From NCBI GenBank assembly GCA_016292095.1, contig JAEFAB010000043.1:1-64000 (forward strand): a DNA stretch of 64,000 bases. The letters are read 5' to 3'. Positions 21,832 to 47,296 of the stretch are shown here, piece after piece. The first letter of the stretch is position 1. The number at the start of each line of letters is the position of its first letter. This stretch comes from Eubacterium sp. Its GTDB lineage: Bacteria; Bacillota; Clostridia; Lachnospirales; Lachnospiraceae. The translations under genes and the position numbers were made by a program. The notes below the pieces were generated by a model. The model was given only the letters and a program-made list of their open reading frames with translations. It was not told the DNA's origin and searched no databases.

Positions 21832-21902
21832 AGGGGCATAGTTCATCGGTAGAATAAGAGTCTCCAAAACTCCAGAGCTGGGTTCGATTCCTAGTGCCCC
21901 TG
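21832..21902 (+). tRNA. tRNA-Trp (anticodon CCA)
   Basis: Folds as a cloverleaf. The acceptor AGGGGCA pairs with TGCCCCT and the discriminator is G. The D stem is GTTC/GAAT. The seven-base anticodon loop CTCCAAA has CCA at 34-36; one outer anticodon-stem pair is mismatched. The T arm is CTGGG/CCTAG with loop TTCGATT. The 3' CCA is not encoded. It stands alone, with its own promoter and terminator. Confidence 0.93.
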
Positions 21903-21907
21903 CTGAA

Positions 21908-21939
21908 AAGAATCAGTCGTAAGACTGGTTCTTTTTTTG
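21908..21939 (+). terminator. Terminator of tRNA-Trp (first copy of a repeated hairpin)
   Basis: AAGAATCAGTC pairs with GACTGGTTCTT around GTAA, followed by seven T. The same stem occurs again at 22611 and 26351. Confidence 0.9.
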
Positions 21940-21991
21940 TGCTTTCGACGCGGTGGTAGCGTGGGGAGTTGGGGACACGGGGGAGTGAATT

Positions 21992-22486
21992 ACGAACGAA
22001 ATTGGGAATGTGCGAGATTCATCCGTAGGGAGTTGAGGGCTTTTACAGATGAAAATAGGGGAAGGCGATATTTATTCGTAGTGGATTGGGGACTATTACG
22101 AATGAAAATATGAGATTGTGGAATGTATTCGTAGGATCGAGAAGATTTTTACGAATGAAATCTGAGAATTGGGAAATGGATTCGTAATGGTCGGGGAGTT
22201 GTTACGAATGAAAATAGAGAAACGTGAGATGGATTCGTAATGATAGCGCGACTACTACGGATGAAAGTGGAGAAAAGTGAATTATATACGTAGTAATGAG
22301 GATTTGGCTACGGATGAAAGAGGAGAAATGGGCAAATCATACGTAGTGGCAAGGGAAAATGAGGTTCTTCGCTGGGGATTACTAGAGGATTTCCGGTTTC
22401 TGCACTTCATCTAGTGACAAATTTGCAGAGATTACTAGATAAAATGAGAATTAAGCAAAATCACCAGTGAATTGGCGTATTGGAAT
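21992..22486. repeat. Array A: nine degenerate 53-bp tandem repeats, each with an internal inverted repeat
   Basis: Units begin at 21992, 22045, 22098, 22151, 22204, 22257 and 22310 with an exact 53-base period. After an 18-base insertion two more begin at 22381 and 22434. In each unit, positions 1-6 and 30-35 tend to be complementary: ACGAAT/ATTCGT in units 3-5 and ACTAGA/TCTAGT in unit 8. Units 1, 2, 6, 7 and 9 are imperfect. The interior drifts freely. No ORF with a ribosome-binding site runs through it. This array fills most of the 828-base gap between the tRNA and the sigma-factor gene. I do not recognise the element. Confidence 0.85.
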
Positions 22487-22563: not shown

Positions 22564-22640
22564 AAAGTTTAAGTGTCTCAAGAGGAATTGACTTTAGTGC
22601 TTCTGATAAAAGGATCAGTCAAAAGACTGGTTCTTTTTTA
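22564..22640 (+). ncRNA. Candidate small RNA of about 75 nt
   Basis: An extended -10 (TGT plus TATGAT at 22552-22557) is followed about 75 bases later by a strong terminator hairpin at 22611-22640. Between them there is no ORF with a ribosome-binding site. No -35 box is clear. The call rests only on promoter-to-terminator spacing. Confidence 0.3.
22611..22640 (+). terminator. Second copy of the repeated terminator hairpin
   Basis: AGGATCAGTC pairs with GACTGGTTCT around AAAA, then six T. Compared with the other two copies, an A-to-G change in the left arm still pairs as G-U. Confidence 0.8.
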
Positions 22641-26333: not shown

Positions 26334-26350
26334 TATTAGTACCTCTGAAA

Positions 26351-26379
26351 AAGAATCAGTCGGAAGACTGGTTCTTTTT
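26351..26379 (+). terminator. Third copy of the repeated terminator hairpin
   Basis: AAGAATCAGTC pairs with GACTGGTTCTT around GGAA, then five T. The stem is identical to the tRNA-Trp terminator; only the loop differs. Confidence 0.88.
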
Positions 26380-26409
26380 GTTGTTGTAAAGGGGGAGATT
26401 TCTCCCATC

Positions 26410-35720: not shown

Positions 35721-35752
35721 TGCCGAGCTTCAACCATATATATTCAATATTG

Positions 35753-36136
35753 TCAATCCATACGGTACGCCGGCGGTCGAGTTGCGTACAACTGATACCG
35801 TATAAATGGGGAAAAGTCAATCCATACGGTACGCCGGCGGTTGAGTTGTGTACAACCGATACCGTATAAAGGGGGAAAATGCAATTCATACGGTACACCG
35901 ACAGTTGAGTTGTGTACAATCGATACCGTATAGATGAGAATAATTCAATCCATACGGTACGCCGGCGGTCGAGTTGCGTACAATCGATACCGTATAGATG
36001 AGAAAAAGTCAATCCATACGGTACACCGGTGGTTGAGTTGTGTACAACTGATACCGTATAAAGGGGGAAAATTCGATCCATACGGTACGCCGGCAGTCGA
36101 GTTGTGAATAACCGATACCGCATAGAAAGATTTTCT
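35753..36136. repeat. Array B: six 64-bp tandem repeats, each with an 8-bp inverted repeat
   Basis: Units start at 35753, 35817, 35881, 35945, 36009 and 36073, exactly 64 bases apart. Each has ATACGGTA at unit positions 8-15 and TACCGTAT at 44-51 (28-base interior); the last copy has TACCGCAT. The interior carries a second inner inverted repeat around TTG(T/C)GTACAA. Copies are much more alike than in array A, so the array is younger or homogenised. It fills most of the 534-base gap upstream of hydE, ending 70 bases before that start. Minus-strand ORFs through it are artefacts, because 64 is not a multiple of three. Confidence 0.93.
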
Positions 36137-47189: not shown

Positions 47190-47296
47190 GCAAGGTATGG
47201 CTTCAATCCATCATCTCTTTAAGTGTACCTTAGTACTGACGATTTTCATGTTTGCAAGGTACAATCTCAATTTTTCGTTTTTTCGAGTGTACCTTA
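47190..47296. repeat. Array C: two 64-bp-spaced units with inverted arms AAGGTA / TACCTT
   Basis: AAGGTA at 47192-47197 pairs with TACCTT at 47226-47231, and again at 47256-47261 with 47290-47295; both arms repeat after exactly 64 bases. In the second unit the arms extend to AAGGTACA/TGTACCTT. The 28-base interior equals that of array B, and both share the GGTA-N28-TACC core, although the rest of the sequence differs. This lies in the 329-base gap between the anti-sigma gene and the vWA gene; the remainder of the gap holds only the terminator at 47391. Confidence 0.75.

Follow-up and report, generated by a model that had tools for sequence, protein, structure and literature searches.

What is the tandem array that follows a tRNA-Trp gene in the window (the whole 64,000-nucleotide stretch of DNA analysed here), and do its mirrored arms reflect RNA pairing, a DNA site or mere repetition? 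The locus is composed as follows.

21832 to 21903, + strand: tRNA-Trp gene (ARAGORN; Rfam RF00005 at 21832-21902), upstream of array A.
About 21905 to 21936, + strand: intrinsic terminator of the tRNA-Trp unit (terminator scan), directly before array A.
21991 to 22345, + strand: array A, made up of seven 53-bp units in which a 37-bp module is followed by a 16-bp linker.
22380 to 22469, + strand: two degenerate units, starting at 22380 and 22433, 53 bp apart.

Array A starts 55 bp past the tRNA-Trp terminator, and 385 bp separate its seventh module from a sigma-70-type gene. Its units begin with TACG, or the variant TACA, at 21991, 22044, 22097, 22150, 22203, 22256 and 22309, and all seven were recovered in a whole-genome search with unit model R1, which was itself partly built from them. 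The consensus of the module is TACGNAT(GAAA)...ATNCGTA, i.e. TACGNATGAAA...ATNCGTA. The exact 53-bp period given in the preliminary description was confirmed across these seven units, and holds again between the two degenerate ones once an 18-bp insertion has been passed (22309 to 22380, 71 bp). The arms it listed, TACGAAT/ATTCGTA in units 3-5 and ACTAGA/TCTAGT in unit 8, were likewise found; the full word of the latter, the first degenerate unit, is TACTAGA/TCTAGTG, and a unit with this word occurs at one locus each in two relatives (L060, L061). Over all pairs of the seven units, identity was 87% in the arms as against 50% in the interior and 38% in the linker (29% expected by chance), in agreement with the drift of interiors and linkers described earlier. 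Three terminator hairpins of the window (21906-21937, 22608-22639 and 26349-26384) are near-identical (91-94%), and the first two flank array A on either side. In a search of the whole window against Rfam 15 at the gathering score, the tRNA was the sole match and nothing was found over array A. A protein-coding repeat was rejected as well, since no ORF of at least 70 aa covers array A and the array periods 52, 53, 64 and 74 are not multiples of three. The search for a phage or virus origin covered the two-unit TACG pattern, which gave 0 matches in the viral collection.

The claim that drew attention to this locus was that the arms change together from unit to unit within array A, and this claim failed. 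Only one arm position varies freely; it is paired in units 3-5, forms no more than a G-T in unit 2 and is unpaired in units 1, 6 and 7. Across 49 units from 8 arrays of three genomes, this position formed 20 Watson-Crick pairs compared with 16.7 after shuffling within arrays, and 336 of 3000 shuffles scored as high. The proposed joint switching of the flanking T/C with A/G amounted to 19 pairs versus 21.2 after shuffling. In a 38-unit alignment, the covariation score was 0.158 (0.160 shuffled) and RNAalifold predicted no pair. Covariation within arrays was rejected on these three grounds: shuffled pair counts, covariation score and RNAalifold.

We then considered arrays of other species. A scan of a genome collection with a two-unit pattern gave 81 stretches, 80 of them listed as loci, and from these and loci fetched earlier 78 non-redundant arrays of 37 assemblies were retained; as TACG, GAAA and a period of ~48-54 were preset in this pattern, it is uninformative on period and biases AT profiles at GAAA. 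Most of the scanned loci bear titles of Lachnospiraceae or of genera that we take to belong there, while a few are titled Clostridiales, Clostridia, Firmicutes, Oscillospiraceae or Ruminococcaceae and one Bacteroidetes (period 50). The arm across the 78 arrays has the form TACGxyz...z'y'x'CGTA, in which x, y and z covary: with one array drawn per assembly, 86.9 of 111 cells at positions 5-7 were paired as compared with 51.3 after shuffling, and p was at most 0.005 in 100 of 100 draws, where the typed assembly label of each locus stands in for species and assemblies count as independent, irrespective of phylogeny. The same 37-assembly test gave no pairing excess at positions 8 and 9, and the arm is therefore 7 bp long, TACG plus three mirrored bases. 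Perfectly mirrored words include TACGAAT, TACGTGT, TACGGTT, TACGGCT, TACGGAC and TACGTAT. Mismatched arms are kept in most or all units of three arrays (L021, L022 and L127). One such mismatched pair, TACGGAT with ATACGTA, recurs in four arrays of one assembly (L127, L119, L088 and L111), as if the middle base were free. Covariation was thus seen only between arrays of different species; it supports the view that the mirrored arms are kept by selection, as had been suggested earlier, with the support coming from the arrays of other species and none from array A itself.

Two further arrays lie in the window.

35752 to 36124, + strand: array B, 64-bp units with arms ATACGGTA / TACCGTAT, of the same class as array A.
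47194 to 47294, no strand assigned: third array, two GTAC-class modules 64 bp apart.

Array B is located past the terminator of a glutamine-amidotransferase-domain gene and ahead of a radical SAM gene. Its counterpart at the same junction in the related genome G007 (63 bp; read by eye) has the central arm base flipped in most units. The third array lies between convergent genes, and the first of its modules has a degenerate half-site. The GTAC class, with the word GGTAC/GTACC, comprises 12 listed arrays and 41 modules in the window's genome, or 10 arrays once two near-copies at contig ends are set aside, so that TACG and GTAC words both occur in one genome. All 20 exact TACGNAT modules of this genome sit in its four TACG arrays. 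There are 32 exact GTAC modules, four of them listed singly, of which three fall within arrays of less exact modules (C12, L190; C23, L296; C60, the window) and the fourth is at C57:45502.

The unit model had strong matches in four of the 23 genomes examined in the genus (the window's genome, G004, G007 and G009) and weak ones, mostly attributable to chance, in all 23; one match in G007 (C63, L023), which seems to lie inside a gene, was dropped as chance. With array A as query, BLAST gave matches in 3 of 40 genomes, that of the window among them. Other genus members carry other words at other periods, and word and period vary from genome to genome; G019, for instance, has 94-bp and 72-bp arrays. 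A 54-bp array of G007 (L018, 114-426), with arms TAGTAGCAG/CTGCTACTA, shows the same geometry without the TACG core. A single 7.8-kb locus, L128 (1832-2612 and 7545-7790), holds 74-bp arrays (one with arms TTGTTAGCCGT/ACGGCTAACAA), a 64-bp array (TTACGCGCA) and a 52-bp TACG array. Array A belongs to a class of intergenic arrays, mostly of Lachnospiraceae, that is dispersed and patchy. For the preliminary description, a lack of covariation together with a lack of equivalents in relatives would have pointed to neutral satellite DNA; equivalents exist in many assemblies, though patchily. Its statement that no named element has this form still stands, as no description of such arrays turned up in searches of an open-licence library.

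The periods of the arrays cluster at 52-54, 63-66, 73-75 and 94 bp, with off-phase or edge values at 61, 66, 71 and 72 bp. In searches with free gaps, GGTAC/GTACC gave 31 forward and 36 reverse matches in the window's genome (0 and 1 with the reversed pattern), of which 66 of 67 had a period of 64-66 bp where 46-86 was allowed. The word TTACATAT was matched in G012 (10 forward and 11 reverse), G013 (16 and 15) and G022 (158 and 164), with none for the reversed controls, and had no match in the window's genome or G019. G022 (L212, L250, L251, L253 and L255; 2.2 Mb) is the densest case seen. Of the 374 matches to this word in the three genomes, in which forward and reverse overlap, 115 rows were counted (31 of G013, 21 of G012 and the first 63 of G022), and 107 of these fell at 73-75, eight at 63-64 and none between, periods of 46-106 being allowed; in G022, 61 of the 63 rows, each of three half-sites, were at 73-75 bp, seven turns. 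CTACGG with CCGTAG (free gaps, periods 40-100) matched 14 of 397 family genomes, and 27 of the 36 listed matches (44 in total) were at 52 or 53, the other nine being scattered over 59-93; the reversed control also matches many of the 397 genomes, so that only this crowding counts and not the number of matches. One array of one assembly mixes 53- and 63-bp units. Since these periods fall in whole-turn steps, linkers appear to change mostly by one helical turn. Phase coherence at 10.5 bp was 0.74 over 16 classes, which were hand-picked after viewing and include the off-phase 61, 66, 71 and 72, making the phase p only indicative.

A repeat survey of 1.88 Mb of chosen stretches, partly from array-bearing genomes, gave 32 noncoding arrays. 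Inverted arms reached the best attainable p (0 of 30 permutations) in 15 of them, with periods of 53, 63, 64 (five arrays), 66, 72, 74 (four) and 94 (two); the periods of the other 17 were 34, 40, 42, 44, 52 (two), 63 (two), 64 (three), 68, 71, 74, 80, 97 and 99. Successive units can have little in common beyond arms and spacing. In four divergent GTAC arrays (L296, L298, L302 and L303), adjacent interiors were only 21-50% identical, and the modules were 36 or 37 bp wide (35-39 allowed) with every linker 28; across the whole GTAC class, the linker is 28 or 29, the interior identity between different arrays is 0.306, and some arrays are near-uniform, with adjacent interior identity up to 1.0. 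AT content in the GTAC class was high ~4 and 24 bp from the module centre as well as at the TA of the word (15 bp), and in the TACG class it was high at the centre and ~7-9 bp out and low at 3-5 bp; the symmetry of these profiles is by construction, as they are averaged over both strands.

The arrays sit outside long ORFs. Where both flanking genes could be called (54 arrays), they are co-directional in 35 cases, convergent in 14 and divergent in 5, the calls being longest ORFs rather than gene-finder predictions and 24 of the 78 arrays lacking one flanking gene. A terminator-like hairpin stands between gene end and array in 32 of 78 cases, a crude count made without a shuffled control. One array of the window's genome lies exactly between the terminators of a tRNA-Gly gene and a convergent glycosyl hydrolase gene; at this junction, G009 and G004 have the two terminators side by side and G007 a single hairpin, with no array in any of the three, and arrays are hence dispensable over species time. 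Where arrays do occur at corresponding places in relatives, words or unit numbers have changed, as after tRNA-Trp in G004, where two units and a remnant are found, after the amidotransferase gene in G007 (array B) and ahead of a gene that has homologues in G000, G007 and G009. As for the neighbours, a Pfam search of 20 of 29 flanking ORFs (two without a match) found no recurring family beyond two sigma-70-type genes. A gene of L017 (7679-8470), without a Pfam match at E 1e-6, follows a TACG array, and so do its homologues in G007 and G009. The proposal that these G007 and G009 arrays share the junction of the rpsI array (C26, L017) was dropped, as neither L062 nor L056 contains rpsI sequence; what that comparison gave is the homologous gene following the array in all three genomes.

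On this evidence, we consider it probable that the arrays are rows of dyad half-sites, presented on one helix face, for a putative clade-specific DNA-binding protein. Each module consists of two facing half-sites of 5-9 bp and, in those classes that were measured, spans 36-41 bp from outer edge to outer edge, which array B fits only when read from its other arm. This width places the half-sites about three helical turns apart. From one module to the next there are mostly 5, 6, 7 or 9 whole turns, which brings the sites onto a common side of the double helix. The preliminary description had left a choice between pairing, as RNA or cruciform, and a palindromic binding site, and a palindromic DNA site is now favoured because wobble pairs are not preferred, single units fold weakly and spacing shifts by whole turns, the last being the stronger argument.

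The closest kind of known element is the interspersed palindromic repeat (REPIN/BIME, BOX), from which the arrays are set apart by their helical steps, their changing word and the missing RAYT. The REP word is a self-folding hairpin, whereas that of the arrays is 5-9 bp long, and the arrays keep strict helical spacing over their whole length. The main rival explanation, unlikely though not negligible, is that the arrays are selfish elements of this kind, with arms that serve as recognition ends of a transposase or recombinase spreading and multiplying the modules, and with no host function. Like the REPs and REPINs described in PMC3116915, the arrays are dispersed outside genes, pair two conserved inverted words across a spacer that varies, use words specific to a genome, form tandem clusters as BIMEs do, are present or absent at a given junction and turn over rapidly. 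However, REPINs are mainly doublets or singlets, unlike the exact TACGNAT modules, all of which sit in arrays, and exact spacing through near-random interiors would need continued selection. With the RAYT model (NF047646), 0 of 23 genus genomes were over the cut-off and 3 of 23 below it, none of these being the window's genome. Y1_Tnp (PF01797) was over the cut-off in 5 of 23, and was absent from the window's genome, G019 and G009, all array-bearing; on the other side, it exceeded the cut-off in the array-bearing G004, G013 and G022 (a short match with an internal stop in the last), and the RAYT matches below the cut-off include G004 and G013. This enzyme search comprised the two models, in an assembly that is 91% complete in the case of the window. 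The pneumococcal BOX element, as presented in PMC3049150, is likewise an interspersed repeat of Firmicutes, in which the number of internal tandem modules varies (boxA-boxB(n)-boxC), yet its modules are conserved in sequence and predicted to fold as RNA, while the arrays conserve short arms only. No distinct end modules were seen in the arrays by eye.

That the arrays act as RNA, with read-through transcripts of the upstream gene folding into successive hairpins by which the 3' end is protected or processed, appears improbable. Their frequent position past terminators and mostly between co-directional genes (35 of 54) would suit such a role, and the folds of two complete arrays are more stable than those of shuffled sequences (z -6.9 and -5.2), though any inverted arms would have this effect. 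RNA hairpins were nonetheless disfavoured, as six single units gave weak folds (z -0.5 to -1.8) and G-T was no commoner than A-C: GT/TG accounted for 60 and AC/CA for 54 of 1152 cells (positions 5-7 of 384 units). Moreover, linkers shift by whole helical turns, which an RNA hairpin does not need, Rfam has no match over array A, and 5 arrays lie between divergent genes by the crude calls. Recognition of a DNA hairpin or cruciform by its shape, rather than its sequence, would explain a freely changing word with retained mirror symmetry, but seems more doubtful still: 7-bp arms with loops of ~20-23 nt form poor cruciforms, which counts against it, and the arrays of one genome often share a word, which shape alone does not require. 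Neutral satellite DNA, made uniform by unequal crossing-over, would fit the arrays whose units hardly differ (identity of adjacent interiors up to 1.0), but is highly improbable, given divergent arrays that keep arms and spacing despite near-random interiors, the same geometry at unrelated loci of many assemblies, and the better conservation of arms than interiors in array A (87% versus 50%).

Returning to the favoured reading, a putative sequence-specific protein of the host clade would bridge both half-sites of each module, and neighbouring copies, probably cooperating, would align along the same face of the helix, forming a nucleoprotein row that is stiff or wrapped. As several words occur in one genome, more than one such protein or a loose specificity would be needed. 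The mismatched arms of some arrays, the off-phase periods, the patchy occurrence and dispensability of the arrays and the lack of a shared neighbour gene also count against this reading. These rows would occupy the space between transcription units, and their first-choice role would be that of a barrier or anchor beyond terminators, one that blocks read-through or else insulates or organises the nucleoid. Lrp/AsnC octamers and ParB/ParR centromeres may offer a parallel, being DNA-wrapping or partition proteins whose operator arrays present inverted or repeated sites at whole turns, ~31 bp apart. They differ in that the arrays described here are many per genome, have no linked protein and lie past gene ends, not at promoters or at one locus.

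More tentatively, and short of an even chance in our estimate, the arrays may represent a new chromatin-like system, in which an architectural protein specific to a clade of Lachnospiraceae would form phased rows at intergenic arrays that number up to dozens in a genome, with word and number of turns per unit evolving fast and word and spacing alone under selection. For the interpretation of such repeats, it follows that mirrored arms that seemingly change together need not mean RNA pairing, and that tests of wobble and spacing can separate the two. If the proposed explanation is right, the arrays would constitute a natural experiment in helical phasing, and they would mark the intergenic space of one of the major families of gut bacteria and indicate a putative protein whose recognition word changes fast.
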